A stretch of 64,000 nt of DNA from the NCBI RefSeq assembly GCF_031312595.1, contig NZ_CP133592.1:2666001-2730000 (forward strand), read 5' to 3'. Source of the stretch: Methanolobus sediminis. GTDB taxonomy: Archaea > Halobacteriota > Methanosarcinia > Methanosarcinales > Methanosarcinaceae. The translations under genes were made by a program, and so were the position numbers. A model generated the notes under the pieces. It had not been told where the DNA came from, searched no databases, and worked only from the letters and a program-made list of their open reading frames with translations. Within the stretch, counting starts at the first letter, position 1. Every line of letters starts with the position of its first letter. Below, piece by piece: positions 37,653 to 58,242 of this stretch.

Positions 37653-38132
37653 TTATTTAAAATTCCCCTCCAACACCTTCACCGCTCCATGTCCATAATT
37701 CAGCTTCTTCCCTTGCCTAATTTTGTCCTTAATCCTCTTCAGTGTACTCCCATGATTAATCCCCATTGGAAGTACATCTTTAGGTTCTAGAGGAAGCACC
37801 CATTCATGAAACTCTTTAATGTTAAGATATGTCTCAATCTTATTACCTTCCAGTTCTTCAATTTCAACCTTGTTTGCCTCCTTGCCAATATACACACAGC
37901 CTTTAGGTTTCAAGTATCGCCTTTGTAGAACTCCAACATTCCCTTTAAATTTGGCTTCAGGATGATCTATGTAATCTAGGAACATATCGCTTAATGGCTT
38001 CCAATATTTTCTTCCCTGAAATTCATCTCCTGTATTGTAATCTATGAACTCTTTTTCAATTGCTGGGATATATACAACTCTAATTTTGGCAACGTTTTTG
38101 TAAGTAGAATACACAACCTTTTTTGAATTCAT
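37653..38132 (-). CDS. Unrecognised ~150-aa family, full-length copy 1
   Basis: 159 residues. The core KYWKPLSDMFLDYIDHPEAK, then VGVLQRRYLKPKGCVYIGKE, is followed by a variable stretch and a C-terminal helix-turn-helix-like tail (PMGINHGSTLKRIKDKIRQG). The tail parallels the Cas1 C-terminus (KLGFSKGTLHYMKKNAK). I do not recognise the family. Relatives in the window are an intact copy at 57793-58242 and remnants at 43.3, 45.3 and 56.3 kb. The start ATG 38132 lies inside the duplicated block shared with the EthD promoter. A DNA-binding role is inferred only from the tail. Confidence 0.6.
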   Translation of the reverse strand: MNSKKVVYSTYKNVAKIRVVYIPAIEKEFIDYNTGDEFQGRKYWKPLSDMFLDYIDHPEAKFKGNVGVLQRRYLKPKGCVYIGKEANKVEIEELEGNKIETYLNIKEFHEWVLPLEPKDVLPMGINHGSTLKRIKDKIRQGKKLNYGHGAVKVLEGNFK

Positions 38133-38315
38133 ATTTTTAGTTCTAGATTTAACTTAATTAAAAGAGATAACACTGTTTACTTTTATATTAAATTTTCATA
38201 GATATTTTATAATACTTTTAAATCAATAACATATTGTGGAAAAATAATCCATAATATGGATATTTTTAGGAGGAGTGGAATGTCAGATAATATAGGATTT
38301 GTAATAGTGTAATGT
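38066..38315 (+). repeat. Duplicated promoter/leader block, copy 2
   Basis: Second copy of the block at 35212-35445, including the GGAGGAGTG ribosome-binding site. On the minus strand it encodes the N-terminus of the ~150-aa family protein; on the + strand it carries the EthD promoter. The two copies bracket a 2.9-kb unit (EthD, isochorismatase, membrane protein, ~150-aa gene). Confidence 0.7.
38280..38312 (+). pseudogene. Truncated EthD start (10 codons)
   Basis: After a good RBS the frame reads MSDNIGFVIV then stop, matching MSDAVGFVVV of the intact gene at 35410. Nothing further of EthD remains. The retained promoter probably now transcribes the downstream membrane protein gene at 38358. 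Confidence 0.65.
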
Positions 38316-38357
38316 AAAACTGAAAACAAGTCAGATATTAAGAATATGGGGGTAAAC

Positions 38358-38996
38358 ATGACATCAGAGGCTATTAAACCATGGGGTATGGAGCCCGAAA
38401 ATGTAAATGGTGATTCCGCTGATGCTACACCTGCAAGTAGTAATTGCAAGCGGCGTGTAGCTATGAGAATTTTTTGGGCAGCTGTCCTTGCCAGTATTTG
38501 TTTTATTTATTTAGCAGTATCTGGGTGGCTAGACTTGGGAATACCTTATTATGTAGTTGTCTTTAGCATAATTGGTGGACTAATGTATCTTTTTGCTTCT
38601 ACTGCAGGCGAATGGGAAACAGCTAAAGAAAAACTAAAAGATGATCCAAATAAATTAAATAAATTCAATAATCAAAATTTTTACGAGAAATTAAATGATT
38701 TCGGCATTCAAAGAAAAGCTTTGCGTGTACTGGCAGCTCCTCTACTGGCAATTGGAATATACCTGCTATTTGATCTGATATTTGTTGGCTTTAGTACAAC
38801 AACCGAACCAGCAAATATCACCGAGAATTCAAGCATATTGGAAATAGTAACTGAGATACAAAATGCCGGTGATTCTGAAAAGATTATCATGATGAAAGCA
38901 GGCATATCTTTTCTGGTCGGAGCTTTTGTGAAACAATTCCTTACTTTAATCCGGGCATTAGCAGATGAAATAGGCGGAGGTAAAAAGCAGAAATAA
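38358..38996 (+). CDS. Four-helix membrane protein, unknown function
   Basis: 212 residues from ATG 38358 (GGGGG 5-9 bases upstream; an in-frame ATG at 38346 is possible). A polar N-terminal 30 residues, then helices at ~35-55, ~60-80, ~120-140 and ~175-195, with a charged loop (EKLKDDPNKLNKFNNQ) between helices 2 and 3. No family recognised. It is driven by the second copy of the EthD promoter block and ends at a strong terminator. Confidence 0.55.
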   Translation: MTSEAIKPWGMEPENVNGDSADATPASSNCKRRVAMRIFWAAVLASICFIYLAVSGWLDLGIPYYVVVFSIIGGLMYLFASTAGEWETAKEKLKDDPNKLNKFNNQNFYEKLNDFGIQRKALRVLAAPLLAIGIYLLFDLIFVGFSTTTEPANITENSSILEIVTEIQNAGDSEKIIMMKAGISFLVGAFVKQFLTLIRALADEIGGGKKQK

Positions 38997-39014
38997 ATAG
39001 ATTTTTTACTTCAT

Positions 39015-39041
39015 AAAGAAGGGTAATATTTTCCCTTCTTT
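39015..39041 (+). terminator. Terminator after the four-helix membrane protein
   Basis: A perfect 9-bp inverted repeat, aaagaaggg with cccttcttt, 9-base loop. Confidence 0.65.
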
Positions 39042-39075
39042 GATTAATTTTCAAGAAACTTATCTATTAACAAAT

Positions 39076-39287
39076 TCACTGCCTCCTTTCCCACATCTCC
39101 AACCTTTCCTTCACATGAGCACTCAGACTAAACGGTTTATCAGCTTTAGAATTCTTTTTCATGTACTCAACTTTGCCATTCATCATAGAATTGAACTCAG
39201 CAGTGAGTTTCCTTGCTCTGAAGGTCTTAATTTGAGAGAATAGTTTTCTGCTCTGGTGAAATCTAAGAATAAGTTTTTCAACAGAAG
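39076..39287 (-). pseudogene. cas1 remnant, C-terminal, with internal deletion and frameshift
   Basis: Read on the minus strand it gives DFTRAENYSLKLRP, a frameshift, then RARKLTAEFNSMMN, then YMKKNSKADKPFSLSAHVKE and RLEMWERRQ with stop. These match intact Cas1 segments RTESYSLRLRP, GAKKLTEEINLWFN and YMKKNAKADKPFTLNAHNKE. About 65 residues between the second and third segments are missing. Confidence 0.8.
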
Positions 39288-39321
39288 ACTTTATAGAAAC
39301 ATAAATAGTGGATGAGAATAT

Positions 39322-40041
39322 ATGAAAATGAATGGCAATACAATATTGATCACTGGTGGAGCTACCGGTATTGGATTAGCCCTGGCCGAAGCTTTCGTAC
39401 AGGCAGGTAATAAGGTCATCATCTGCGCAAGGACCGAAGAGAACCTGAAGCAGGCTAAAGAAAAGCTCCCTCAGCTGCATATAAGAAAGTGCGATGTTTC
39501 GAAAGAAGAAGATTGTGAGGCATTATATGCCTGGGTAACTGCTAATTTTAAGGATATGAACGTCTTGATAAATAATGCAGGTATCCAGCGTATGATCGAC
39601 TTCAGGAAAGGGACTGAAGATCTTATCAGGCATCGTATGGAAGACGGAGAGGACGAGATAGATGCTAACCTCAAGTCTCTTGTGTATATGACTGCACTTT
39701 TTACCCCTCATCTGATGAAGCAAAAAGAAGCCGCGATTATGAACGTTTCTTCGGGACTTGTATTTTATCCCATGCCTGCAGTTCCTATTTATTGTGCAAC
39801 CAAAGCAGCGGTCCACACGCTCAGCATCTTGCTCAGACAACAACTGGAAGGCACTTCAGTCAAAGTATTTGAGTTGATCCCGCCAATGGTAGACACAAAC
39901 CTCGATAAAGGTGCAAGGAAAGCCAGAGGACAGACATATTTCGGCATCACGACTGCCGAGCTTGTCCAACCTACAATGAAAGCCTTTGAATCAGATGAAT
40001 ACGAGATACGCGTGATCGACCCAAAGCTGGCATCAAGATAA
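39322..40041 (+). CDS. Short-chain dehydrogenase/reductase (DltE-like)
   Basis: 239 residues with the NAD(P)-binding TGGATGIG (~10-17), the NNAG motif in VLINNAGIQ (~88), a catalytic Ser in MNVSSGL and YCATKAA as YxxxK (~155). Length and sequence resemble the DltE-type SDR group. The substrate is unknown. It begins just past the cas1 remnant and may be cargo or a bystander. Confidence 0.88.
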   Translation: MKMNGNTILITGGATGIGLALAEAFVQAGNKVIICARTEENLKQAKEKLPQLHIRKCDVSKEEDCEALYAWVTANFKDMNVLINNAGIQRMIDFRKGTEDLIRHRMEDGEDEIDANLKSLVYMTALFTPHLMKQKEAAIMNVSSGLVFYPMPAVPIYCATKAAVHTLSILLRQQLEGTSVKVFELIPPMVDTNLDKGARKARGQTYFGITTAELVQPTMKAFESDEYEIRVIDPKLASR

Positions 40042-40153
40042 AAAAGACGGTTGTCGATACATATTTGTTGATAACGTTAATTTGATAAGTTGATTAGATT
40101 TTTTACAGAATAATGTATATAGTCATCTCTCTTTTAATAAAAAGAGTGAGAAG

Positions 40154-40339
40154 ATGACTCAAAATAAAAGATATTTGGAGTGGGGTATTAGTTTTTGGAT
40201 TGGAATTGGTTTAATGAGCATAATAAATGTTTGGAAAATTAGCCAAAACCGTAATCCAATTTTATATTCTGAGATTATGTTTGGGATTTCTATAATTTTT
40301 ATAATTGTAGCTGCAATTTTAATAAAAACTAAAAAATAG
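40154..40339 (+). CDS. Small two-helix membrane protein
   Basis: 61 residues, two hydrophobic segments (~11-26 and ~40-57) and a basic C-terminus (IKTKK). GAG RBS about 6-8 bases upstream. No family recognised. Followed 9 bases later by another small hydrophobic ORF, so the two may be one unit. Confidence 0.45.
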   Translation: MTQNKRYLEWGISFWIGIGLMSIINVWKISQNRNPILYSEIMFGISIIFIIVAAILIKTKK

Positions 40340-40348
40340 GCTAGTATA

Positions 40349-40549
40349 ATGAAGGGTAATCTCATGATCAGTTTCCCGAAACATATGTTGATACGGATTT
40401 CCTTAATACTGCTTCTTATAAACCTGATAACGTTCTACGGGGTTGCAAAGGTACCTTTAGGTTTTGTTCTCAGCGTCATCATCCTTGAGATATTTGTGAT
40501 AGCAGTGTCATTTGCATATTTGGTTCATATATACAAGCTTAAATGGTGA
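40349..40549 (+). CDS. Small hydrophobic ORF, copy 1, antisense to a cas1 5' remnant
   Basis: 66 codons (or 62 from ATG 40364, the start shared with copy 2). Two hydrophobic stretches: LIRISLILLLINLITFYGV and LEIFVIAVSFAYLV. Copy 2 at 42950-43135 keeps the frame with many differences, several silent (ctg/cta, ttc/ttt, gca/gcg), which hints at a real protein. However, the last third is the complement of a cas1 start with an internal stop on the cas1 strand (NQICK-stop-HCYHKYLK). It may therefore be a chimera of an unrelated small gene and cas1 5' DNA. Confidence 0.4.
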   Translation: MKGNLMISFPKHMLIRISLILLLINLITFYGVAKVPLGFVLSVIILEIFVIAVSFAYLVHIYKLKW

Positions 40550-40550
40550 C
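40457..40550 (-). pseudogene. cas1 5'-end remnant (copy B)
   Basis: Minus-strand reading gives MNQICK-stop-HCYHKYLKDDDAEN, matching MNRICKMYCYHKYLKADDTEQ of intact Cas1. Similarity to cas1 coding ends there. Confidence 0.65.
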
Positions 40551-40572
40551 CCATCTTCATCCATTCAAAGAA

Positions 40573-42276
40573 TCATTCTTCTTGCAAGTTCCTGTAAGCT
40601 TCCAGGACATCCTGGACTGACTCGAAGATATGGTCCCTGCCGATCATTTCAGTTATACCGTCCCTGTCAAGCTCATTCATAACAGGCTGCACCACATCAC
40701 TTAATACAAGAGTGATATTCATTTGTTGCAACTGGGTGCATACATTTTTAAGCGCCTCTATAGAAGTGAAATCGATATCTTCGATGTTCGTTGCAGAAAT
40801 ACAAAACCATTTAAGTCCCCCATCTTTGTTGGCAAGTGCAATTATTTCTTCTCTGAAACGGGTTTCGTTAGCAAAGTAAAGGTTTGAGCCAAAACGGTAT
40901 ATCAACAGGCCCTTAACAGCTTGCTGCCCTTTTTCGAGTGGAACTGTCCTCATGGCTCCTCCCTGTTTTGGAACAAGCAGCAGGTTAAGTGGTCGGTAAC
41001 TGTGGCGCAGGTGAGCAATAACCGAGAGTACTATAGATATCACAATTCCCTGCTCAACACCTATAACTACAACTGTCATAGATGTTATCAGGGCAACGTT
41101 GAATTCGACAGGACGCTGTCTGTAAAGAGCAGCCATTCCTTTTGTATCAATAAGTCGCAGACCAATGAGAAATACCACCGATGAAAGTACGGCAGTGGGC
41201 AAATAGGCGAATGGCCTGGTAAAGAACATCAGAACTATCACAACAATAAAGACAGTTGTGAGCTGGGTAAGCTGGGTACGCCCTCCGGCACTTCTGACCA
41301 TTTCGGTTTTTGTCGGACTGCCATTGACAACAAAAGTACCTGATATTCCTGCTGCTGCATTGGCAAGGCCAAGTCCGATGAGATCTGAGTTTTCGTTGAA
41401 AGTGTCGGAAAACTTCATAGCATAAGCCCGGGACGTTGCAGCACTCTGGGCGAGGATGATAATAAAACAGGCCGCTGAAATGTTAAGAAGCTTTGGAATA
41501 TCTGAAAGTGTAACCTGAGGCAAAGCAAGATGAGGCAAACCCCCGGGTATCGTATTAAGAATAATGATCCCGTAAGAGGAAAGATCGAACATCCAGCTTG
41601 CAGTAATTGCCCCGACGATTGCTATTAGTGCACCGGGGAATTTACTCCCAATCCTTTCGCTAAGAACTATAACCACGATTACAGATAATGAGACTAAAAG
41701 CGTGGGAACGTTTATAAGAGCCAGGGTTTTTAATAAAGATGAGGGTAAAGATAAAAGATGAATTAACGTTCCATCTAATCCAGTGGCTATCCCTAACATC
41801 CCACCAAGCTGTGAGATCGAGATACGGATACCTACGCCGGATAGAAATCCTATCAGGACTGTATGAGAAAGGAAATCAGCCAGAAAACCCAGTTTCAGCA
41901 TGCCTGCAATAAGGATCAAGATTGCTGCAATCAGAGCGATCATCCCGGCATATGCAACGTATTGAGGAGATTCCGGCACTGCCATTGTTATCAGTCCGCT
42001 CGCTATTATCGCCGCAGTTGCAGAATCGGCTCCGACTACAAGATGGCGGGATGAACCGAAAATAGCAAAAGCTAACATAGGAAGCAGAATTGTGTAAATT
42101 CCGGTAACTAAAGGCATACCTGCAATCCTGGTGTACCCCATAACTTCAGGAATGGCAAATGCTGCGAATGCGATTCCTGCAGTGATTTCCATAGGTATTT
42201 GTTTAGGACTGGATGGTAATGCTCCTTGTAAAAGAGGAATGTGAAGGAACTTTCCCGGATTTTTTGCAGGCTTCAT
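40573..42276 (-). CDS. SulP/SLC26-type anion transporter with STAS domain
   Basis: 567 residues. The sulfate-transporter core spans ~1-430 with about 12 membrane segments and SulP hallmarks such as AFAIPEVMGYTRIAGMPLV and GFLSGVGIRISISQLGGMLG. A cytosolic STAS domain follows (~450-560; DIDFTSIEALKNVCTQLQQM). Such carriers move sulfate, bicarbonate or related anions. It lies within the segment bounded by the split metallophosphoesterase pieces, between cas1 remnants. Confidence 0.93.
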   Translation of the reverse strand: MKPAKNPGKFLHIPLLQGALPSSPKQIPMEITAGIAFAAFAIPEVMGYTRIAGMPLVTGIYTILLPMLAFAIFGSSRHLVVGADSATAAIIASGLITMAVPESPQYVAYAGMIALIAAILILIAGMLKLGFLADFLSHTVLIGFLSGVGIRISISQLGGMLGIATGLDGTLIHLLSLPSSLLKTLALINVPTLLVSLSVIVVIVLSERIGSKFPGALIAIVGAITASWMFDLSSYGIIILNTIPGGLPHLALPQVTLSDIPKLLNISAACFIIILAQSAATSRAYAMKFSDTFNENSDLIGLGLANAAAGISGTFVVNGSPTKTEMVRSAGGRTQLTQLTTVFIVVIVLMFFTRPFAYLPTAVLSSVVFLIGLRLIDTKGMAALYRQRPVEFNVALITSMTVVVIGVEQGIVISIVLSVIAHLRHSYRPLNLLLVPKQGGAMRTVPLEKGQQAVKGLLIYRFGSNLYFANETRFREEIIALANKDGGLKWFCISATNIEDIDFTSIEALKNVCTQLQQMNITLVLSDVVQPVMNELDRDGITEMIGRDHIFESVQDVLEAYRNLQEE

Positions 42277-42417
42277 ATTCGTTTTAATCTCCTATTAATA
42301 ATTCATCTATAATCTTTACTTTTATTCCTTCAACAAACTTCTGGTCATTTTACGGAAGAAGTTTTTATTTTACCTTTCCATGGCTCTTGATTCTCATAAG
42401 CTTGATATTGAGCAAAT

Positions 42418-42525
42418 TAAGTCTTAACATTGATACTCCTAGGAAGGAGAATAGTAGTTAGTAACTTATCATCCCAGGTTAGAAAAGTAACCTGACTCTT
42501 GATGTTATTAGGTGCTTGATTAAAC
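42418..42525 (-). pseudogene. cas1 remnant, N-terminal domain fragment
   Basis: Minus-strand reading APNNIKSQVTFLTWDDKLLT then TILLPRSINVKT aligns with intact Cas1 KHNVQISILNWDGKLLT and TMLPPESTNVKT. Flanks have decayed. It lies between the SulP gene and the metallophosphoesterase N-terminal fragment. Confidence 0.75.
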
Positions 42526-42801
42526 TATAATTTTAAACCAGATAATGACATTTAACAGATAAATAAATATGAATACTTCCATTCAGCCTTGTCCTGACCG
42601 CCTGTGAAAGCATTGGAGCAGCACGGGGTATTCCAAGAAAAATAAATGTGCAAGCTTTGGCAATATATTAATAAGGATGATGTGCAACGGACATTGTCAC
42701 AATGGTTTCGACCGCATTATGAATAAAAATTTCTGACCGCGTGTTATAACAGGATCCTGTTGAACTCAGTTCATGCTGCAGGATCAAAAGAGGAGGAATC
42801 T

Positions 42802-42930
42802 ATGTCTATAGTAGCTGTCTCTGATGTGCATCTTGGTATGAAGGGAGCAAAAGAAGATGAATTTACAGAATTCGTAGATTATTTGAATGAAAGGAAGGTC
42901 AAACACCTTGTACTGCTGGGGGATATTTTA
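42802..42930 (+). pseudogene. Metallophosphoesterase, N-terminal fragment of a split gene
   Basis: A good RBS (aggaggaatct) precedes ATG 42802. The frame encodes MSIVAVSDVHLGMKGAKEDE and LNERKVKHLVLLGDI: the DxH and GD metal motifs of the calcineurin-like family. After LLGDI the sequence changes to the repeated block beginning near 42933. The C-terminal half is at 34426-34992 on the other strand. Confidence 0.78.
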
Positions 42931-42932
42931 GT

Positions 42933-43183
42933 AAAGGACGGATTACCTCATGATCAGTTTTCCGAAACAGATGTTGATACGGATTTCCTTAATACTACTT
43001 CTTATAAACTTGATAACGTTCTACGGGGTTGCAAACCTACTGTTAAGTTTTGTTCTCAGCGTCATCGGCCTTGAGATATTTGTGATAGCAGTACATTTTG
43101 CGTATTCGGTTCGTAGATACAAGCTCAAATGGTGAATGATTGGAATTATTTTAAAACTCAATTCATAGTCACTTAATGCATTT
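42933..43183 (+). repeat. Repeat copy C: small hydrophobic ORF fused to cas1 5' end
   Basis: Similar to 40355-40550 over its left part and to 31985-32117 over its right part. It carries a 61-codon + strand ORF (42950-43135, MISFPKQMLIRISLILLLIN onwards) and, on the minus strand at 43050-43135, a cas1 start whose ATG is now ACG (TNRIRKMYCYHKYLKADDAEN). It is inserted in, or fused to, the broken metallophosphoesterase gene. Confidence 0.65.
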
Positions 43184-43276
43184 CTTTTTAGGATATCTAT
43201 AACTATAGCTTTAAACTCTTAGTTTGAGAAACACAGCCGTCCAAAAGAGCTTTTTATTCACATCACTTACATTAAA

Positions 43277-43543
43277 TTAAGTTAAAGTGCTAATTATCCA
43301 TTTCACATTCCTGCTCTTAAAATTCAAATCCTCTCCCTTTGCTTTTTTCTTCAAATAAGCCAACGCACTCCTATGCTTGATTCCGAGTTGTATTGCTAAG
43401 CTTCTTGAAATAGTGCGGACCTTGTTTAATCCCTTCTGTTTCATAATCAAGGAAAGAATCATAAACAATACTCTGTGAGCATTAGAAAAAGGAGCTAATG
43501 GTTTCACTGCCTTTCCATTTTCTTCAAGGATCTGAAATCCCAC
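43277..43543 (-). pseudogene. ~150-aa family remnant fused to its HTH tail
   Basis: An 88-codon ORF. The part NKVRTISRSLAIQLGIKHRS joins a segment also seen, out of frame, in the 56.3-kb remnant (NKVHIISNNLAGQL) to the C-terminal tail GIKHRSALAYLKKKAKGEDL of the family. The conserved core (YIDHPEAKF, VYIGKEANK) is missing, so this is an internal-deletion derivative. It could still be translated. Confidence 0.6.
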
Positions 43544-43658
43544 AAATTAGATCGATGAGATTGAAAGTCACCATCAATAAAATAATGTAAGAAAAGTATG
43601 CAAAGAAAATAACGAGAGTATAAGCACCACGATTATCTCTTGAACTACTTTTCAAATC

Positions 43659-43877
43659 CTAGTTTTCATTGTTTGTCTGTTCTTTCTTATTCAGGAAAGA
43701 TGAAACAGTTTTCTGAATGAATACTATTTCGTCAAGTGAGAAATACATGAAGACATCCTCACCAGTATGACGGTTGTATTTCCTGATACGTAACCATCTG
43801 TCAGAATAAGAGCTTATACGGGTGTAATTTTCACTATTACAGTGCATAAACTCCTTTCCGTTATTACATATCTCCAT
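43659..43877 (-). CDS. Small hypothetical protein, 72 aa
   Basis: A basic, aromatic-rich small protein (ISSYSDRWLRIRKYNRHTGE then DVFMYFSLDEIVFIQKTVSS). Coding quality looks real. The start has no strong RBS. No family recognised. It lies alone between remnants. Confidence 0.45.
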   Translation of the reverse strand: MEICNNGKEFMHCNSENYTRISSYSDRWLRIRKYNRHTGEDVFMYFSLDEIVFIQKTVSSFLNKKEQTNNEN

Positions 43878-44239
43878 ATTTGATTAGAGTTTCAGATCGA
43901 ACTTATACTTATGTTATATATTTTCCATAGACGTAAGTGTACTATAGAGCAGTATATAATTGTGGTATTTTTGGGGAACAAAAACTGGATAATGCCAATA
44001 AATGCCAGCATTTATCAGCTCAATATTTTCTCTAATTCCTGCACAAGGAGTTCGTAATTCTTTTCCAGTTCAGGTAGCATTTCCATAACCTTGTTCATCT
44101 GTCTGGAACTTGCCTGCACCTCTATTCAGGAAGAAACAGAACTCCTTTTAAATTAACAATATGTTTTCAACTGAAAACAAAAAAGTATTTCTAAAAGTGA
44201 ATGTATGTCCTTTCAAAAAAGAACAAAATGAGTTAAGAA
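43878..44239. other. Intergenic region with a short coiled-coil ORF remnant
   Basis: On the minus strand 44015-44119 reads QASSRQMNKVMEMLPELEKN then YELLVQELEKILS and stop, from a GTG. It looks like the coiled-coil end of a lost protein or a 34-residue peptide. The rest is AT-rich and holds nothing recognised. Confidence 0.3.
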
Positions 44240-45091
44240 TCATTTTGTTACTGAATGTGCAAAGTTTATATGCTTAAGCACATGTTGGTCTGTGCATTCT
44301 TTTAAGTAACGGCTTTCGATATCTGATGGGCTTAAGTTTTCCACAAGGTCAAATCCTAAACATGCGAGATTTTCCTCTAATACCAAAGGGTTGAAGCCTC
44401 CTGTTTTTCTTGGCTCATCTATCTTTTCCAGATATTCCGTTGATTTTTGTAGTTGTTGAGACTTCTTCTCAAGGTTAATCTCATTAAGATCCATATAATC
44501 GAAAACAAGGGTGCTACCAGAAGAACTAATGTTAGCAATAAAGCGCAGTGTTGTTTCCACTTCATCCTGGGTTAAGTAATTAATGACGCCAAGCCAGCTA
44601 AAGAAGGTTTTAGCTTCAGGATCGTAAGATGACAAGTTCGTAAGTTCAGTTTCCAAATTTTGCTTGGTGAAATCAATTGGAACTAAATGTAGATTTTCTG
44701 GATTTTTCCACCCCAACTCTGCATATCTTTGAAGTTTAAATTCCTGTGTTGCAGGATGGTCAATTTCGAAAACGTTTAATTTTTCCATTAAATCCTGTCG
44801 TCGAAGTGCAAATGTGTCCATCCCTGCGCCAAGAATTACATATTGAGTAACTCCCTGTCTGATAGCTTCCTCCAGGATATCTTCGGTGTATCGTGAACGG
44901 GTGACAATATTATTTGTTGCCGGTACAAAAACCTCCGGGATAATCTGCTGCTTGATCTGTTCTTGCACGTCTTTGGGTACCAGATCATTGGCTAAAAAAT
45001 CATCAAATATTTTGTCGGTAGCATGTATGCAGTGATGGGCACGCATGTAAGCTGTCCATAGTGAAGTATTACTAACCTGGTTATCGTCCAT
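44240..45091 (-). CDS. LCM/TIGR00027-type SAM-dependent methyltransferase
   Basis: 283 residues of the leucine carboxyl methyltransferase fold. Family features are RSRYTEDILEEAIRQGVTQY then VILGAGMDTFALRR (SAM loop), an acidic FEIDHPATQEFKLQR, and SWLGVINYLTQDEVETTL. The family methylates small molecules or carboxyl groups; some members belong to polyketide pathways. Substrate unknown. Single gene; both sides carry remnants. Confidence 0.87.
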   Translation of the reverse strand: MDDNQVSNTSLWTAYMRAHHCIHATDKIFDDFLANDLVPKDVQEQIKQQIIPEVFVPATNNIVTRSRYTEDILEEAIRQGVTQYVILGAGMDTFALRRQDLMEKLNVFEIDHPATQEFKLQRYAELGWKNPENLHLVPIDFTKQNLETELTNLSSYDPEAKTFFSWLGVINYLTQDEVETTLRFIANISSSGSTLVFDYMDLNEINLEKKSQQLQKSTEYLEKIDEPRKTGGFNPLVLEENLACLGFDLVENLSPSDIESRYLKECTDQHVLKHINFAHSVTK

Positions 45092-45550
45092 CTGATTATC
45101 ACCTTTTCATTCAGATTTCATTTTTAAGCTTATAGAGTGGAGTAAACATTTAATTTTGCTCAATAATGCTTCAGGAATTCTAGGAGTTGCGAATGATTTC
45201 ACTCATTTTTGCAGTATCTTCAGTAAATATTTGTTGGTGCAGTGTTTGAGTGGAAAGATAAAACTCCGTTTTCAAGTCTCCTTCCCCTGTCATATCTTCC
45301 AATTATTTTAATGTACTCATCTGCTTAATTCCAATCTTGCTTGATTCAGTAAGTATAAAACCAAATATGTATTGAGTATCTTGCAGGCTTTTTTGAGCGA
45401 TATCTTATTTTAATGAAAAAGAACACCTGCTAACATTTGGATATTACGGAAATATCCTGAGAAACGATCTTTACCCTTATTTATCCTAGTAAAGTCTTTA
45501 ATAAAGAATATAACTATAATAAGAACGGAAAAATAAAAAAGAAAAGGAGC
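45092..45550. other. Intergenic region holding a decayed ~150-aa family tail
   Basis: On the minus strand 45257-45385 reads YIFGFILTESSKIGIKQMST then LK-stop-LEDMTGEGDLKTE, matching the tail of the intact copy at 57.8 kb (YVLNITPAEARKIGIKYRST, then LKKLKERVQEEDFNLNTKE). No intact gene. The remainder is AT-rich. Confidence 0.55.
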
Positions 45551-46618: not shown

Positions 46619-46621
46619 GTT

Positions 46622-49104: not shown

Positions 49105-49119
49105 GGATATGGCTTTATC

Positions 49120-49215
49120 TCTAGTTCCACATTTCTAATCTCTCTTTAACATGAGAATTCAAGGTAAACGGTTAATTAGCTTTAGCATTCTTTTTCATGT
49201 CACGCAGAGCACTTT
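49120..49215 (-). pseudogene. cas1 remnant, C-terminal tail
   Basis: Minus-strand reading KSALRDMKKNAKAN-stop-PFTLN, then SHVKERLEMW, matches Cas1 KGTLHYMKKNAKADKPFTLN and AHNKERLDKW. One internal stop. It lies 10-15 bases after the FKBP gene. Confidence 0.78.
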
Positions 49216-49237
49216 TAGAAAAACAGGCTTGCCGAAA

Positions 49238-49812: not shown

Positions 49813-50064
49813 ATGCCAAAATCTCCAGAACCAGATAAGCAATCGCTCAAAGTCACTGAACGTATAAATGCTACAGCGCTTGAATTACTCGAAAAACATC
49901 CAGAAGGTCTGCGCTGGTCAGAACTAACTTCAATGATCAGGAATTCAGATCCCACTTTTCATCCGAAGACTGTTAATGGATGTATCTGGAAACTGCTCGA
50001 AAAATATCCTGACAGGGTTTACAAGCCATCTAAAGGGCTCTTCAGATTGCTGAAATACAAATGA
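49813..50064 (+). CDS. Small winged-helix-like DNA-binding protein
   Basis: 83 residues. Predicted helices NATALELLEKHPEGLRWSEL and PKTVNGCIWKLLEKYPDRVY followed by YKPSKGLFRLLKY form a winged-helix-like (HARE-HTH-type) unit. Likely a DNA-binding protein. ATG start 27 bases after a TATA-like aatatttattgg, so possibly leaderless or short-leadered. Confidence 0.6.
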   Translation: MPKSPEPDKQSLKVTERINATALELLEKHPEGLRWSELTSMIRNSDPTFHPKTVNGCIWKLLEKYPDRVYKPSKGLFRLLKYK

Positions 50065-50341
50065 AGTTGACTACAAACAGAAAAGAGCTAGAACCGCATT
50101 GGTCTTTGTTACCTGAATGGCAACTTTAATGTCATTATGTTTTTCTATTTCAGCAGTTGGCATTTCAAAAGAACTGCCTTTAGCATGGGCTTCAAGTTTA
50201 ACAGTCAATGCTGTGTTTCATATCCAATAACCGGTTCAATTATTGAGCAAAATAGGAGTATTACATTATTTTACGCAAAAAAATCTTTTTTGGAAAACTA
50301 TAATTATCATCAATTACATTACCCATTTTTGGGAAGTAATC

Positions 50342-50608
50342 ATGACAGTATTAAATTATGCTCTTTTAATAAAGAACGAATTGTTAAATGAAATGTCAGT
50401 TAACATTAATGAGCTGTGTGGCAAGTCTTCTGTTATTAATGGACAAGATGTAGTTGTAGAAAATGTGAAAATCGAAACAAGTCGTGTTGTAGATATATAC
50501 AAACATCCGATGTACAATATTTACATGAATCATGAATTGAAATTCAAAGATGTTTCACTATTTGATGCAGTGTATCATGTTAGCATGCATTTTGGGAATG
50601 GAAGATAA
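50342..50608 (+). CDS. Hypothetical protein, 88 aa
   Basis: The frame from ATG 50342 encodes TVLNYALLIKNELLNEMSVN then INELCGKSSVINGQDVVVEN and a beta/alpha tail (DVSLFDAVYHVSMHFGNG). Frame-open sequence extends upstream to 50243 but looks non-coding. The true start could also be ATG 50393. No family recognised. Confidence 0.4.
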   Translation: MTVLNYALLIKNELLNEMSVNINELCGKSSVINGQDVVVENVKIETSRVVDIYKHPMYNIYMNHELKFKDVSLFDAVYHVSMHFGNGR

Positions 50609-50955
50609 TTATTTTGCATTTCATCTGTTACAATTAAAATTTTAGGTGCCAGCAGGCTTATTTTGATATCAAGGTCATTCATCAAAACTCATTGAGATGT
50701 GCTTAGCTAAAATATCAGCTAATATTCAATATTTTAGTTACATTTTGATAACTATGTTCTTTCTAAGCTCAAAATATTATGCTATTGGCATTATTCAGGC
50801 AAAATAGCTTGCATAATGCATTATTTTCATAAAAAAGAGCTGAGGGTTTCTATATTCTCTATAAAAACGGGTTTGATATGTTATTAATCTATTATTTAGA
50901 TTTAATACGTTTATTTTAAGCAAAACCATTATATTCATGATATTTCTTTACGAGA
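50609..50955. other. AT-rich intergenic region
   Basis: No gene found. There are a weak dyad aaaatat / atatttt near 50708-50734 and several tagct/agcta words; nothing else noted. Confidence 0.3.
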
Positions 50956-51588
50956 ATGGTTTTAAATTGCCCTAATGGGCTAAAAGCTGGTGAAAAAAGG
51001 TTTATGGAAATAAGCACAGCTGTAAAAAAAGCAATTCGCTATAGCGTAGTTCAGAATATTCTGAAGCATTATCAATGCCCTGATACATGCGGAGCACATT
51101 GTTGCAGCAAGGGGCAAATTCACTTTTTCGAGGATGAAGTCAAAGTCCTGACAGTTTTGGATCAGGAAAAGGCTAAGAATATCACAAACGATGGTCTGTC
51201 CGCAGGACTTTACCAGATGAATGCACCCTGTTCTTTTCTCAATACAAGCGGCAGATGTGATGCATACAACAGTAGACCTACCGTTTGTGGTATGTATCCA
51301 TTCAAGGTCAACACATCCGGCACTACCCTTGGTCTGCAGCCCTGTCCGATTGGATTTTTGATAATCCGGGATTTTGCAGAATGGATAATTGACACCTTTT
51401 CAAAATCAGGAGTCTCTGATGAAGAAAAAACCAGGATAAAAGAAGAATGGCAAAAAAATGTAGATTCATATGAAGCAGAACTTGTAGACTTCCACTTTAA
51501 ACCGGTTCTTAAAGAGATGCAGATACCTTTTGATGAACTTGAAATGCTTTCAATGTTCCTGTCTTCAAAAAAAGCTAAGAATAGCTAA
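50956..51588 (+). CDS. YkgJ-family cysteine-cluster protein, copy 1
   Basis: 210 residues (a start at ATG 51004 with AAAGG upstream is also possible). The CxxxC..CC cluster is CPDTCGAHCCSKG (~38-50); the second group is CSFLNTSGRCDAYNSRPTVC then GMYPF. This pattern binds iron or an iron-sulfur cluster in the zinc/iron-chelating YkgJ family (PF03692). It often acts in redox or as a metal-handling partner. A second family member follows 150 bases downstream. Confidence 0.8.
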   Translation: MVLNCPNGLKAGEKRFMEISTAVKKAIRYSVVQNILKHYQCPDTCGAHCCSKGQIHFFEDEVKVLTVLDQEKAKNITNDGLSAGLYQMNAPCSFLNTSGRCDAYNSRPTVCGMYPFKVNTSGTTLGLQPCPIGFLIIRDFAEWIIDTFSKSGVSDEEKTRIKEEWQKNVDSYEAELVDFHFKPVLKEMQIPFDELEMLSMFLSSKKAKNS

Positions 51589-51740
51589 TATTTTATAAAT
51601 TACTTTATAAATGCATTTTTTAGCCTACATTTATTTTTTACTTATTTTAATTCTAGACTTTCCTCGAAAGTTTATCTAGATCTATTCATATAGAAACCGG
51701 TTTTTCGGATTATTATCTTAGAAAATAAAAGGTGGTTGGT

Positions 51741-52298
51741 TTGCCTATTTCTGAAACTTATGAGATTGTTGAGGTAATCCTCTCGCATTATTCTTGTCCG
51801 TCCAGCTGTAATGCTTTTTGCTGTAAAATAGCAGATATTAATCTGGATGAAAATGATCTGGAACGGTTAAAACAGGCATCTGAATATAAAGCCTATATGG
51901 TCAAGTCTTGTAATGAAGATGGAAAACAGCATAAGATATGTCCTCCATGTCCTTTTCTAATATTAGACCGATGCAGTGTATATGATAAAAGGCCAGCTAT
52001 ATGCCGATTGTTTCCATTCAACATCTGTGATCTTCCAGACGCATTGCTATTGTTCCCATGTGACATGGGGGCAAGTATATTCGAAGATTATGTGATATAT
52101 TCTAATATAATCCTTAAGCAACCAATCTCAGCATCAACAATTGAGTCTTTTGCACAGTCACATTGTTCTTTCAGAACAAAATTAAATGAAGGGCTATATA
52201 TTCCAATGCTTATCCTCAAAATCAACAAACTTGTAGCGTTTAAAGAATATCTGGAATCAGGACTCGGATTTAAGGGAAACCCGGAAATCCCAGTTTAA
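51741..52298 (+). CDS. YkgJ-family cysteine-cluster protein, copy 2
   Basis: 186 residues. TTG 51741 is preferred because the AAAGGTGG RBS at 51728-51735 would overlap the GTG at 51732. Clusters CPSSCNAFCCKI and CPPCPFLILDRCSVYDKRPA then ICRLFPF. Shorter than copy 1 and only distantly similar in sequence, so an old duplication or independent acquisition. Its 3' end overlaps the convergent gene at 52257 by 42 bases. Confidence 0.75.
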   Translation: MPISETYEIVEVILSHYSCPSSCNAFCCKIADINLDENDLERLKQASEYKAYMVKSCNEDGKQHKICPPCPFLILDRCSVYDKRPAICRLFPFNICDLPDALLLFPCDMGASIFEDYVIYSNIILKQPISASTIESFAQSHCSFRTKLNEGLYIPMLILKINKLVAFKEYLESGLGFKGNPEIPV

Positions 52299-52511
52299 TT
52301 TATTTTTGTTCACCGGTGAGAAATTACATCTGACCATTGCTTCCTTGAATTGCTTATTGGTGACAAAAAAGCCAACTGATGATTCTTCAAACAATGTTTT
52401 GAGAGCAAAACTTGCGTAAGTATTTTTTGAGCCTTTTTGTGGGAGTATGTTTTCCTTTATCCAATTGTCAATGGTTTTAATTTCAATATCGCTTAATTCG
52501 TAATCACCCAT
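52257..52511 (-). CDS. Small phage/ICE-like hypothetical protein
   Basis: 84 residues from ATG 52511 with a GGAG RBS. It has LSDIEIKTIDNWIKENILPQ, then YASFALKTLFEESSVGFFVT and NKLNWDFRVS. The pattern resembles small proteins of Firmicute phages and integrative elements that end in LNWxFxIS, which suggests acquisition from such an element. Function unknown. It overlaps the YkgJ gene tail-to-tail. Confidence 0.55.
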   Translation of the reverse strand: MGDYELSDIEIKTIDNWIKENILPQKGSKNTYASFALKTLFEESSVGFFVTNKQFKEAMVRCNFSPVNKNKLNWDFRVSLKSES

Positions 52512-52644
52512 TTTATTTGCTCCTGTATTTCTAACTATACGCAGATTTAGACTCTCTATATAGGCTCATGGCTTTTTTAATGTTGTTCTTTCTCTACATA
52601 ACCATGACTTGCTAAATAAAAAAAGTAAAAACCATCAACACAAA

Positions 52645-52741
52645 GTTTTATATAGAATAACATCAGTAACTGCATTCCGAGTACTCATCAGTCAACGATA
52701 CAACTCAAAACACAGACTAAACTTGATTAAGGAGGATTATC
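52645..52741 (+). promoter_or_regulatory. Promoter and strong RBS of the 2Fe-2S ferredoxin gene
   Basis: TATA-like ttttatatag at 52645-52654, a leader of about 65-70 bases, then AAGGAGGA about 5-8 bases before ATG 52742, the strongest Shine-Dalgarno in the region. High expression is expected. Confidence 0.55.
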
Positions 52742-53050
52742 ATGCAAAAACCAGAAACTCATATATTCGTTTGCGCAAGCACAAGACTAAATGGAATGGT
52801 AAAGGGCGCTTGTGAGAACAAAAAGTCACACAACCTTGTAGGAATGTTTGCTGAAGAAGTAATGGACAGAGACCTTGAAGGTGAAGTGATGGTTACTGCA
52901 ACCGGATGTGTAGGTCTTTGCGAGAAGGGACCAATAGTCATGATCTACCCACAGCAGATCTGGTATGGCGAGGTTACAGAAGGTGACATCGAGGAGATCC
53001 TTGATGCAGTAGAAGAAGGTGGAGTCGTAGACCGACTGCTCATTGATTAA
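52742..53050 (+). CDS. Thioredoxin-like [2Fe-2S] ferredoxin
   Basis: 102 residues. Cluster ligands are Cys at positions ~11 and ~24 (FVCASTRLNGMVKGAC) and the pair GCVGLCEKGP (~59-63), the pattern of NuoE/Shethna-type thioredoxin-like ferredoxins. The end YPQQIWYGEVTEGDIEEIL is typical of the family. An electron carrier with unknown partners. It has its own strong promoter/RBS and a terminator, so it is monocistronic. Confidence 0.9.
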   Translation: MQKPETHIFVCASTRLNGMVKGACENKKSHNLVGMFAEEVMDRDLEGEVMVTATGCVGLCEKGPIVMIYPQQIWYGEVTEGDIEEILDAVEEGGVVDRLLID

Positions 53051-53070
53051 AACTAAACACAAAACGTAAG

Positions 53071-53107
53071 GCGATTTATTCATTAAAACTGAATAAGTCG
53101 TTTTTAT
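53071..53107 (+). terminator. Terminator after the ferredoxin gene
   Basis: Arms cgatttattca and tgaataagtcg (one G-T pair) followed by a T-run. Confidence 0.7.
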
Positions 53108-53385
53108 TTATCTTATTCATACTTTTTCTTTCCGTTTCTTGATTTAAGCATTTTAGATCTAAATTAGATATGGAAGCTTCGTGTTCTCAGTTAACTGTAT
53201 AATCCCTGCTTATTACCATATAGATTCCTAATAAACATCTTTTAATCAATTAACACTCAAAACTGAGCAGTCTGAATATATATTTTGACGTTTGTCTCAT
53301 TTTTTACTCATAACTTTTGATTTACTCTGGTTTAACTGGCCTAAAAGACAAAAAGTTATATGTCAGGGATGCCTGTACCAAAGGT
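53108..53385. other. Intergenic region before homospermidine synthase
   Basis: AT-rich; contains TATA-like tctgaatatatat near 53275. An open frame runs back to 53317, but it lacks conservation-like sequence before the ATG at 53386. Confidence 0.35.
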
Positions 53386-54834
53386 ATGAAACCCAAATTC
53401 TCAAAGAAGGTTCTCATCATCGGTTATGGTTCAGTTTCACAGTGTACCCTGCCGCTTTTACTGGACAAACTCGATGTTCCGTTAGAAAACATTACGTTAA
53501 TAGATTTTGAAGACAAATCAAAAGCCCTGAAGAAATATACCAATCAGGGATTAACATTTGTCCGTGAAAAGATCACACCGGAAAACCTGACTCAGGTCTT
53601 ATCCAGACACATGGATAATGATGGCCTGATAATAGACCTTTCATGGAATATTGATGCCATAGACATCATTACGTGGTGTCATGAACATAACGTGTTATAC
53701 GTAAACACATCTGTAGAAGTATGGGACCCTACTGAGGATTTCCTTAATAGAAGCCTGCTGGAAAAATCCCTTTATTTACGCCAGATGAAATTACGTGAGC
53801 TTTCCCGTGACTGGAAGGACGCACCTACTGCTGTTGTAGACCACGGTGCAAATCCAGGTCTTATTACTCACTTTGTTAAGCAGGGTCTGCTGGATATTGC
53901 AGAACGCACCTGTGCTGATAAAAAAGTATCTCCTGAAGATGAAGAAGAGATCAGACAACTTGCTGAGAAAAGAGATTTTGCTCACCTTGCCCACAAACTT
54001 GGTGTCAGGGTTATTCACTGCAGTGAACGCGACACTCAGGTTGCTAACCGCGCAAAGGAAGTCGATGAGTTTGTAGGTACATGGAGCATAGAAGGACTTA
54101 GAGAAGAAGGAACAGCTCCTGTAGAAATTGCCTGGGGTACACACGAGAATAAGATGCCTCCATTGGCTCAGGTTCCGGACTTTGGCCCACAAAATGTTAT
54201 TTTCATGCCACAGATGGGTATGAACACCTGGGTAAGATCATGGATACCCGGTGAAGAGATTGTTGGTATGGTTATCCGTCATGGAGAATCATACGGTCTT
54301 TCTAAACTACTGACGGTATGGGATGAAGATAAAGCTGCATTCAGACCAACTATTCATTACGCTTACATGCCATGTCATGATACGCTTTCATCTCTCTTTG
54401 AGTTGCGTGGCCGCAACTATGAGCTCCAGTCAAAGCTCAGAATAATGACAAATGAGATCGTTTCCGGTGAAGATATATTGGGTGCGCTTCTGATGGGTCA
54501 TTCTTATAATTCATGGTGGACCGGAAGTGCATTGAGTATCGATGACACAAGGTCTCTTGCACCAGGTCAGAATGCTACAACTCTTCAGGTGGCTGCTGGT
54601 GTAGTAGCTGCCGTACTCTGGATGCTTGAGAATCCAAAAGAAGGAATCAGGACACCAGAAGATCTTCCACATGATTTTGTCCTGAATATTGCCCTGCCAT
54701 ATCTTGGTAATTTCATATCCACTCCATCAGACTGGACTCCACTTAAGAACCGTAAGGTATTCTTTAAGGAGAATCCAGCAGTGGAGCATGATTCTGATCC
54801 ATGGCAATTTGAGAACTTCCAGTTTATTGGATGA
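53386..54834 (+). CDS. hss: Homospermidine synthase
   Basis: 482 residues from ATG 53386. NAD-binding KVLIIGYGSVSQCTLPLLLD (~8-27), then DGLIIDLSWNIDAIDIITWC, NTSVEVWDP, TAVVDHGANPGLITHFVKQG, and a C-terminal AGVVAAVLWMLENPKEGI. The enzyme makes sym-homospermidine from putrescine units in an NAD-dependent reaction. The sequence is the bacterial-type Hss and not the deoxyhypusine-synthase-like plant form, so lateral transfer in the lineage is likely. Confidence 0.88.
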   Translation: MKPKFSKKVLIIGYGSVSQCTLPLLLDKLDVPLENITLIDFEDKSKALKKYTNQGLTFVREKITPENLTQVLSRHMDNDGLIIDLSWNIDAIDIITWCHEHNVLYVNTSVEVWDPTEDFLNRSLLEKSLYLRQMKLRELSRDWKDAPTAVVDHGANPGLITHFVKQGLLDIAERTCADKKVSPEDEEEIRQLAEKRDFAHLAHKLGVRVIHCSERDTQVANRAKEVDEFVGTWSIEGLREEGTAPVEIAWGTHENKMPPLAQVPDFGPQNVIFMPQMGMNTWVRSWIPGEEIVGMVIRHGESYGLSKLLTVWDEDKAAFRPTIHYAYMPCHDTLSSLFELRGRNYELQSKLRIMTNEIVSGEDILGALLMGHSYNSWWTGSALSIDDTRSLAPGQNATTLQVAAGVVAAVLWMLENPKEGIRTPEDLPHDFVLNIALPYLGNFISTPSDWTPLKNRKVFFKENPAVEHDSDPWQFENFQFIG

Positions 54835-55019
54835 TCTTAACAAAATATTGAATAAATTAATGACTGGATTCACAATTAGATGTTAAGTCTCTTTGTGAGT
54901 CCATCATGTCTACTTTTAATTTTAAGTTGTTATTTATAGTGTAAAATATACTACTTATACTAAGTAATTATTCTACAATTATTCTACAATAAATGTGGGT
55001 TTATTAAAGAGGTCTGAAA

Positions 55020-55622
55020 ATGGATTTTAATGAATTGACTATAGCAAGATATGCCAGCAGAAAATACACTGACAGGAAGATAGATGAAGAGACAATCGGG
55101 CAGATCAAGGAAATGATCAGGAACAGTCCTTCAGCTGTTAATGTTCAGCCATGGATGATCAAGATAATAGATGATGCCGAAACAAAAGAAAAACTTGCAC
55201 CGCATGTATTTGGAGGACAGACTCAGGTTCCAAGCTGTTCACACATTTTAATCTTATGTGCAAATATTGAATGGGACAGCCATATTCAGGCAAATATAGA
55301 AGGCATGAGAAAGGCACAGGTTCCGGAACAGAATATCAAATATTACCAGATGGCAGTTGATGGTATGTTTGGTCGTATATCCGATGAAGAGAGACTTGTG
55401 GAATCACAGAAAAATGTGTATATAGCAGCAGCAGCAGCCATATTTGGAGCTAAGTCACTGGGTGTTGACTCATGCATAATACAAGGATTTGATGTAGATG
55501 CTCTCAGCAAGGTTCTTGATCTGCCAGCAAATCTTACGCCCACATTGATAGTTACTCTGGGTTATGCTGCAGATAGTCCAGTTCCAAAAAGCAGACTTCC
55601 TGAAGATGAAATATTCTGTTGA
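55020..55622 (+). CDS. Nitroreductase-family FMN oxidoreductase
   Basis: 200 residues. The typical start YASRKYTDRKIDEETIGQI with Arg/Lys FMN phosphate contacts, RNSPSAVNVQPW, and the late IYIAAAAAIFGAKSLG-like region with GVDSCIIQGFD. A homodimeric NAD(P)H:FMN reductase of nitro or quinone compounds; natural substrate unknown. RBS gaggtctgaaaATGG at 55010-55021. Monocistronic. Confidence 0.88.
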   Translation: MDFNELTIARYASRKYTDRKIDEETIGQIKEMIRNSPSAVNVQPWMIKIIDDAETKEKLAPHVFGGQTQVPSCSHILILCANIEWDSHIQANIEGMRKAQVPEQNIKYYQMAVDGMFGRISDEERLVESQKNVYIAAAAAIFGAKSLGVDSCIIQGFDVDALSKVLDLPANLTPTLIVTLGYAADSPVPKSRLPEDEIFC

Positions 55623-55700
55623 ATAAGCCATCTTCTTTTAAATATTTTATTTTTCTGTTTTTTGAATATGTAGATATTTTCATTTTGTTTATTAAGAGCT

Positions 55701-55829
55701 GCTCTGTAAAAATCCTCGATATTTGGTCGAAGATTTAAACATACAATAATTTGGAATATATTACATTATAGTTATGAAAAGTCCCTGTTTTATCATACTG
55801 ATGTTGATTTTAATGGGTTTCTACAGAGC
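55701..55829. mobile_element. MITE-like element, 129 bp
   Basis: Near-perfect 15-bp terminal inverted repeats: gctctgtaaaaatcc (55701-55715) and gggtttctacagagc (55815-55829), 13 of 15 matching. The interior is AT-rich and non-coding. A related transposase was not seen in the window. No target-site duplication is obvious. Confidence 0.5.
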
Positions 55830-56224
55830 CGAAAAATTGACAATAACTCCCACTCATCTCATACTCCATCACCCGTATAGAGAGTTTTACCCCCCACTCC
55901 CTTTCCACTCATACTCTTTTACTTTTTACGGAGGCCGAAAATGCTGCTTTTAAGATACAGAGGGAAGATATCTTGCAGCATTTCCGTGCAACCCAATTCT
56001 TTACGTTTTTCTACGGAGGAATTTCAAATGAGTTCTATATCGTATCACAGAATGGTTCTTTGTGATGTTTACTGCGTGGCAGTTTTTACCACAAACAATA
56101 CTATATTTTTTAACTATATAAATATATCTGCACTTTACTATATAATGCGCATGATAATGATGAGATGTTTGTAGTTTTATTCCATATCAGTTTTTCACTT
56201 CTACACCCTGCTGCCTGCTCATCA
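55830..56224. other. Non-coding region after the MITE-like element
   Basis: No gene supported. A 77-codon open frame at 55941-56174 has an RBS-like tacggagg but its composition is not protein-like. The motif tacggagg occurs twice (about 55927 and 56012). Confidence 0.3.
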
Positions 56225-56410
56225 ATATTGTTGGCTTCTTTGCCAATGTAAGCAACAGAATCAGCCTTACATGCTTTCTTTCAAGTATTCCTGTTTCCCC
56301 ATCAAGCTTTGATTCAGGATGATTGACATATTCTATAATTGTCCTGCTAAGTTGTTTGAAATAATGTGAACCTTGTTAATCTCTCTTGTCTCATAACTAA
56401 TGAAAGGTTC
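56225..56410 (-). pseudogene. ~150-aa family remnant (frameshifted)
   Basis: Minus-strand reading across frameshifts: EPFISYETREINKV, then HYFKQLSRTIIEYVNHPESK and LDGETGILERKH, then SVAYIGKEANNIDEQ. These match the intact copy at 57.8 kb (EFIDYSTGDI, YWKPLSDVFLDYIDHPEAK, GDIGVLQRRH and CMYIGKEANKVEMQ). Two or more frameshifts. Confidence 0.75.
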
Positions 56411-56557
56411 TGTTTGACTGATATGGGATTGTTTGATGTCAATGAGCTTGAATTAATCAGTCATATTGAAGGATGAAAACCATGAATAGGTACACTTATA
56501 GGGTTAGGGAGCAAATTAAGCTATACATTTCGTCAGTGAAAATCAGGAAGGATTGAT

Positions 56558-57046
56558 ATGACCGAACGTCAGGTTGAAAGTGTGATAATCGAAATTCCTC
56601 AAGGAAGCCGTAACAAATACGAGTATGATAAAGAAAAGAAAATGATAAAATTCGACAGGATGCTTTATTCTTCAATGGTATATCCCTGCGAATATGGTTT
56701 TTTCCCCGATACCCTGGCACTTGACGGTGATCCTCTGGATGCCATGGTCATGACATGGGAACCCACGTTTCCCGGATGCATGATAGATGTTCATCCTGTT
56801 GCATTGTTTGATATGGAGGACGATAAAGGAAGGGATGAAAAGATACTCTGTGTTCCTGAGACTGATCCTTTGTGGAACTATATTGAAACGATCGAACAGG
56901 TTCCTCCTCATTTGTTAAAAGAGATCACTCATTTTTTCGGGACTTATAAGAATCTGGAGGACAAGCATGTGAAGATAATTGGCTGGAAAGGTCTGGAGGA
57001 AGCAGTCCATACACTTCAGGAAGCAAAATCCCGATATATCGAGTAA
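56558..57046 (+). CDS. ppa: Inorganic pyrophosphatase (family I)
   Basis: 162 residues with the family signature DGDPLDAMVM (~57-66), the N-terminal IEIPQGSRNKYEYDKEK and the basic LEDKHVKIIGWKG near the end. It hydrolyses cytosolic pyrophosphate to drive biosynthesis. RBS caGGAAGGattgatATG. Monocistronic, flanked by remnants on its left. Confidence 0.93.
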   Translation: MTERQVESVIIEIPQGSRNKYEYDKEKKMIKFDRMLYSSMVYPCEYGFFPDTLALDGDPLDAMVMTWEPTFPGCMIDVHPVALFDMEDDKGRDEKILCVPETDPLWNYIETIEQVPPHLLKEITHFFGTYKNLEDKHVKIIGWKGLEEAVHTLQEAKSRYIE

Positions 57047-57072
57047 ATGAAATGATATTTACGCTCTTAGTG

Positions 57073-57660
57073 TCATTTTAACTTTCGCTTTTCACCGAGT
57101 AATTTTTCTTTGTTGGGTCGGGTGTCATCTAATAAAAAATCTGCCCAATTAAGTCCAAGTTTATCGGTGTTTTCTTCCCAATATAACAAACGGTCATAAT
57201 AATAATCTATCTTTTCCGTGACAGGTTTTGGGAAGTCATCTTTTCCGTATTTTAAGACTATTGCTGTCAATTCATAAAAGGACAAACCCAAAGCATGTGT
57301 TTCTACATGCACGGTGGCTCCGGCATGACCAATTGCATGACACAAAGCACCATATTCGCTGTCATTGATCTCTTTTGCTACAGCATGTGAATCTAAAATT
57401 GCCTTTTTTGCAATAGGCATTTTAACTTTGCCCCTTGCCCAATCCTCACAAAGTTCTAAACAGATTCTTGGTCTGTGTTCATCAGGATACTTTGCTTCAA
57501 ACTGCTCCAAAGGTGCTTTTGCACAATCCAATGCCCACATTACAATGGTTCGGTGATTTTGTAGTTGAATTAATTTAATCAAATCTTGTAAGCATTGACT
57601 GTCGCGAGAAAACAATATTTTATTTTTCTTCTTTAATTTGATCTCTACATCTGAAAACAT
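57073..57660 (-). CDS. Imm5-like putative immunity protein
   Basis: 195 residues, helical. It matches the Imm-5-like pattern: MWALDCAKAPLEQFEAKYPD, RPRICLELCEDWARGKVKMP, a run of SHAVAKEINDSEYGALCHAI, and GHAGATVHVETHALG. In bacteria this domain is predicted to protect against polymorphic toxins. No toxin gene is adjacent; it may be an orphan immunity gene retained after horizontal gain. Family assignment from memory of motifs. Confidence 0.65.
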   Translation of the reverse strand: MFSDVEIKLKKKNKILFSRDSQCLQDLIKLIQLQNHRTIVMWALDCAKAPLEQFEAKYPDEHRPRICLELCEDWARGKVKMPIAKKAILDSHAVAKEINDSEYGALCHAIGHAGATVHVETHALGLSFYELTAIVLKYGKDDFPKPVTEKIDYYYDRLLYWEENTDKLGLNWADFLLDDTRPNKEKLLGEKRKLK

Positions 57661-57792
57661 AGTCTAAATCCCACTAAGAAGTGAATATATATTTGATTGA
57701 CGATTTAAAAAATAATTTATTTTGTTTAATGTTCAATAAAATCTACAGTGTATGTCTAATCAGTTCTAAGAGATATTGTTTGTTCAGAAGAG

Positions 57793-58242
57793 ATGATCAA
57801 AACTGTTGTTCCTTACAACAAGAATCCACAGGTTGCTATTGAGCAGGAGTTCATAGATTACAGTACAGGCGATATTCTTAAAGGAAGGCAATATTGGAAG
57901 CCACTAAGTGATGTATTTCTAGATTACATAGATCATCCTGAAGCTAAGTTTGAAGGAGATATAGGAGTACTGCAAAGGAGACATCTTACTCCTACTGGAT
58001 GCATGTATATTGGTAAGGAAGCCAATAAGGTTGAAATGCAGGAACTTGAGAGCAATACTATTGAGACCTATCCTGATATTGAAAAAATAAGAGAGTATGT
58101 ACTCAACATTACTCCTGCTGAAGCTAGGAAAATAGGAATTAAATATAGGAGTACTCTTAAAAAATTGAAGGAAAGGGTGCAAGAAGAGGATTTTAACTTG
58201 AATACGAAGGAGATGAGAAAAGTATTGGAAAGTTTAGCTTGA
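57793..58242 (+). CDS. Unrecognised ~150-aa family, full-length copy 2
   Basis: 149 residues. The same core as copy 1: EFIDYSTGDILKGRQYWKPL, LDYIDHPEAKFEGDIGVLQR, then YIGKEANKVEMQELE and the tail AEARKIGIKYRSTLKKLKER. The N-terminus differs (IKTVVPYNKNPQVAIEQ versus IRVVYIPAIEK). The frame is intact with no strong RBS. It lies 4 bases from the end of the convergent PD-(D/E)XK nuclease gene. Confidence 0.6.
   Translation: MIKTVVPYNKNPQVAIEQEFIDYSTGDILKGRQYWKPLSDVFLDYIDHPEAKFEGDIGVLQRRHLTPTGCMYIGKEANKVEMQELESNTIETYPDIEKIREYVLNITPAEARKIGIKYRSTLKKLKERVQEEDFNLNTKEMRKVLESLA

Follow-up and report, generated by a model that had tools for sequence, protein, structure and literature searches.

The window (the whole 64,000-nucleotide stretch of Methanolobus sediminis DNA analyzed here) contains five scattered pieces of related coding sequence interspersed with cas1 remnants, and the question raised by the locus is what protein these pieces belong to. 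An earlier note described them as a separate companion family of about 150 residues, with two intact members, three remnants and a C-terminal tail resembling that of Cas1. The pieces almost certainly represent the last ~150 residues of PolB, the DNA polymerase encoded by family 2 casposons, left behind by repeated insertion at a tRNA-Leu and decay by deletion. Casposons are transposons mobilized by a Cas1 protein (PMC4046053). The features of the locus are collected in Table 1.

Table 1. Casposon-related features in the window, in order of position
Feature	Position	Strand	Basis or remark
tRNA-Leu (anticodon TAA), casposon attachment site	23077-23163	+	ARAGORN, Rfam
14-bp target duplication CGCATCTGGTTTTT, overlapping the tRNA 3' end	23158-23171	+	CGCA rule (PMC6977970)
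Casposase cas1 with C-terminal HTH	30875-32047	-	PF01867; matches M. mazei casposase 6opm
Casposon terminal repeat GGGATATATACAAGGCGAAAAAAGTGTACGC	35149-35180	-	Outer end at 35180
Target duplication AGCACCTGGTTTTT	35181-35194	+	2 mismatches versus copy at tRNA
End of second casposon, GGGATATATAACTC...	35195-35441	+	79% identical to 38064-38311
Chimeric ORF	37653-38132	-	PolB 761-883 (37698-38063) plus N terminus translated from casposon end
Casposon end within polB, GGGATATATACAACTC...	38065-38311	+	Sequence comparison of ends
cas1 remnant	39088-39263	-	Residues 270-284 and 370-399 (pieces at 39088 and 39219)
cas1 remnant	42384-42494	-	Residues 71-107
PolB remnant	43283-43543	-	Residues 730-786 and 857-896
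PolB remnant	45222-45490	-	Residues 171-211 joined to 849-895
cas1 tail remnant	49127-49237	-	Residues 362-398
PolB remnant	56193-56410	-	Residues 759-829
Short polB piece	57759-57793	+	About residues 623-634, different frame, just upstream of PolB tail at 57790
PolB tail	57790-58242	+	Residues 746-894 map to 57790-58236; ORF 57793-58242
PD-(D/E)XK nuclease-like gene	58247-59335	-	PF14281; between polB tail and terminal repeat at 60222
Casposon terminal repeat	60191-60222	-	Next to it a 14-bp sequence ending in GTGCG

The two longer ORFs, on the minus strand at 37653-38132 and on the plus strand at 57793-58242, are related with 62% identity over 117 amino acids (E 5e-58), and each of the three smaller pieces also matches this protein, so that the relationship between the five proposed earlier is confirmed. 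With the 57793 protein as the query, matches are found in 53 of 186 genomes of the same order, and the best full-length matches in relatives fall in open frames ~890 residues long that in most cases are about 5 kb away from a full-length cas1. At the relative locus L083 the frame has 894 amino acids and belongs to the family B DNA polymerases (PF00136 DNA_pol_B, E 2.6e-8), with a further match to PDB code 5mdn, and the gene order there is cas1-hth1-hth2-HNH-polB. This order is present in all 12 sampled relative loci. These five genes make up the core described for family 2 casposons by Krupovic et al. (2014, PMC4046053). Mapping against full-length PolB aligns all five pieces to the casposon PolB C terminus, with internal deletions, and in relatives this C terminus is continuous with the full-length polymerase. 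Searches of the fragments against Pfam and NCBIfam give no match above chance. The polymerase catalytic core is missing from the window, where the separate pieces cover residues 171-211 and about 623-896 only.

The open frame surrounding the match at 67 loci in other genomes varies from 15 to 1051 amino acids and is in many cases continuous with PolB, and a fixed small gene with a conserved independent start is found at none of the 67. A separate small protein family working with a solo Cas1 and recognizing the same DNA would fit the tail held in common with Cas1 and also the association with cas1, which was predicted earlier and is observed as a Cas1 match in 52 of the 53 genomes with a PolB tail compared with 83 of the 133 others (some of the Cas1 matches being CRISPR Cas1). 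This explanation is nevertheless almost certainly wrong since its members fall within full-length PolB in relatives, their frames have no fixed size and the two long ORFs are one deletion product and one chimera. The casposon PolB assignment removes a false new partner of Cas1 and puts a known transposon component in its place, and the proposal that the two proteins belong to one system is upheld, as Cas1 and PolB are core genes of the same transposon.

Neither of the long ORFs can be termed intact, because each is a C-terminal piece of a protein of ~890 residues with the other parts missing. Directly upstream of ORF 57793-58242 the short polB piece joins residue 746 in another frame, which corresponds to a deletion combined with a frame shift. 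The similarity of ORF 37653-38132 to PolB stops at 38063, and the remainder of its N terminus is the translated casposon end GGGATATATACAACTC starting at 38065, placing the end of one casposon inside the polB of another. A second copy of the target duplication for the casposon end at 38065 was searched for and not found. Both ORFs are therefore accidental, the first a deletion product and the second a chimera. The positions reported earlier do contain the pieces, but the 37653-38132 ORF is to be read on the minus strand and the extents of all five change when defined against PolB (Table 1).

The attachment site is the 3' end of the tRNA-Leu, where a target duplication with CGCA is present. A casposon end (GGGTAATAGG...) begins at 23172 directly after CGCATCTGGTTTTT, and the same end type occurs in the relative locus L093. 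The more distant copy of the duplication, AGCACCTGGTTTTT, is flanked by two outward-facing casposon ends, and the terminal repeat at 35149-35180 recurs as an identical 32 bp at 60191-60222 and in the relative locus L087. Several ends are found in the window, but no two of them pair as the terminal inverted repeats of a single element; in L087 (genome G131), the casposon at the same tRNA-Leu has terminal repeats that match, and its duplications match as well. Relatives have casposons at this same tRNA-Leu, the genes to its left being conserved in five relatives and the right flank partly in two. The terminal repeats were detected through conserved ends beside tRNA-Leu, an inverted-repeat search inside casposons recovered no terminal repeats, and one terminal-repeat variant had no exact match in the genome. 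The sequence adjoining the repeat at 60222 (60223-60260, GTGCGAAAGGTAAAATTAGAACCAA) resembles a decayed tRNA-Leu 3' end when compared by eye with L086, and ARAGORN calls no tRNA there.

The casposase gene in the window has lost its original first ~29 codons, with homology beginning at residue 30 of the relatives, and its start is replaced by sequence that recurs at 43056-43184 and 40470-40549. It carries the substitutions P122L and L190P, and neither position varies among 13 intact relatives. Two copies of a small hydrophobic ORF are present, at 40349-40549 and 42950-43135 (87% identical DNA), and part of the duplicated sequence is fused to the shortened cas1 start (31989-32117). The stretch from 23 to 60 kb contains no HNH, hth1 or hth2 gene, and the single weak hth1 match lies outside it, at 10412; there is no complete casposon in the window. 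The nuclease-like gene is probably casposon cargo, judging by its position, and a 2346-residue NosD/beta-helix surface protein (23659-30699), located between the tRNA-side casposon end and cas1, may be cargo as well.

In all likelihood the tRNA-Leu was a repeated target of casposon insertion, the end of one element came to be within the polB of another, and deletions then reduced the elements to pieces of polB and cas1 among other genes. The locus is a record of successive casposon insertions at a single tRNA and preserves one end within the polB of a second element.

The last ~45 residues of PolB are similar to the Cas1 tail (hhalign P 1.1e-5), and a second independent comparison agrees. Windows elsewhere in Cas1 or PolB give no score in hhalign with the sole exception of Cas1 289-368, which reaches into the tail. 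The AlphaFold models have four helices with equal spacing in both tails, the PolB-tail model being poor except for the last ~55 residues, and Foldseek searches of both tail models against the PDB give no significant match. The tails of Cas1 and PolB are homologous and have the same helix pattern, in agreement with the common tail noticed earlier. Krupovic et al. (2014, PMC4046053) reported a similar HTH at the C termini of both Cas1 and PolB in family 2, and the shared tail is thus already published and here confirmed across many genomes. The casposase tail is required for integration in vitro, and for the isolated casposase HTH domain DNA binding could not be shown (Hickman et al., PMC6977970). 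With one HTH tail in common, the casposase and the casposon polymerase may both dock on the same DNA, and it is plausible that both tails recognize it. In an intact casposon, Cas1 inserts the element ends at the tRNA-Leu 3' end (integration of ends by Cas1 being known from the literature), PolB would presumably copy the element, and the shared HTH tails could direct both proteins to one and the same DNA, either of the casposon or of the target. The result touches on a question posed in the casposon literature, namely what the HTH tail of the casposase does (PMC6977970).

Casposon relics in this genome and across the genus are overwhelmingly C-terminal tails of polB and cas1. In a survey of 27 genomes of the genus, with search tables limited by E-value, the midpoint of the PolB relic lies in the last 22% of the protein at 55 of 66 loci. 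The p-value obtained for this bias assumes independent loci and is too small, because L183 and L186 are flanked by the same sequence and seem to descend from a single relic in an ancestor of the two species. For hth2, the central gene, the 23 matches in these genomes are all full length, with no fragments. A detection effect was rejected as the origin of the tail bias, since conservation of the PolB tail does not exceed that of the remainder of the protein. Two further explanations were considered: persistence of tails by facing cargo genes tail-to-tail, with neighbor orientation taken from simple ORF calls, applies to 7 of 8 tails by ORF positions in the window but only 11 of 31 in relatives and has no support as a general rule, and nested insertion into polB as the source of tails was rejected with a terminal repeat at the 5' edge in only 1 of 59 relics (38065).

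The enrichment for tails could also mean that some of the fragments, ORF 57793-58242 above all, are expressed and yield small HTH proteins that, for example, compete with the casposase at casposon ends. Consistent with such a domesticated tail, the enrichment is strong across the genus and conservation does not explain it, and the 57793 frame is open with a dN/dS of 0.21 relative to the fragment in G131. Intact PolB pairs at moderate dS have values of 0.14-0.21, however, so the fragment resembles intact polymerases, as expected from inheritance off an intact PolB, and gives no sign of separate selection. Stops or frame shifts also occur in many tail relics and the truncation points differ between the window genome (G000) and G131, making domestication very improbable. 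The PolB and Cas1 fragments themselves are most likely inert casposon debris.

A second pattern concerns strand. A cas1 tail accompanies a polB tail on the same strand in 7 of 20 relic loci (L173, L174, L178, L179, L183, L186 and L191), that is, in all loci of this sample with both tails, the 20 having been hand-picked from the survey table as polB-tail relics and not at random; in L172 a polB tail and a short piece of cas1 are on one strand. The same holds for the clusters of this genome and for L193-L195, but not for L192 or the piece at 57790. Loci L192-L195 were added later, partly because same-strand pairs had been seen there, and the own-genome clusters L196-L204 are the only ones selected without reference to strand pattern. 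In intact casposons of the relative loci, cas1 and polB are on opposite strands. At L186 (1757-2215, minus strand) a polB piece is fused in frame with a cas1 tail, and a similar polB-cas1 junction is present in L192. Random decay does not obviously account for relics that are nearly tail-only and on one strand per cluster. Both features would be accounted for if the cas1 and polB tails were orientation-fixed separators in gene arrays, retained or produced by a casposase-driven process resembling the build-up of cassettes or spacers, an idea that is itself very unlikely to be correct.

The locus is close to characterized elements. The family 2 casposons (PMC4046053) likewise have a Cas1 with a C-terminal HTH, a PolB with a similar HTH tail and insertion at a tRNA 3' end, and their core of cas1, polB, HNH and two HTH genes is found in relatives of the window locus, whereas all that is left of them in the window is one truncated cas1 together with fragments of cas1 and polB, with no HNH or hth2. 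In the Methanosarcina mazei casposon the last 4 bp of tRNA-Leu (CGCA) open a 14-bp duplication (PMC6977970), and the window has the same tRNA-Leu target with a 14-bp duplication starting with CGCA at the tRNA end. The window casposase is related to that of M. mazei (6opm) over residues 14-388 but is without its original N terminus, and the terminal repeats in the window are different and unmatched. Methanococcoides burtonii and Methanolobus psychrophilus likewise have several neighboring casposons at a single location, some of them decayed (PMC4046053); compared with these, the relics in the window are more numerous and smaller, and include a casposon end inside the polB of another element.
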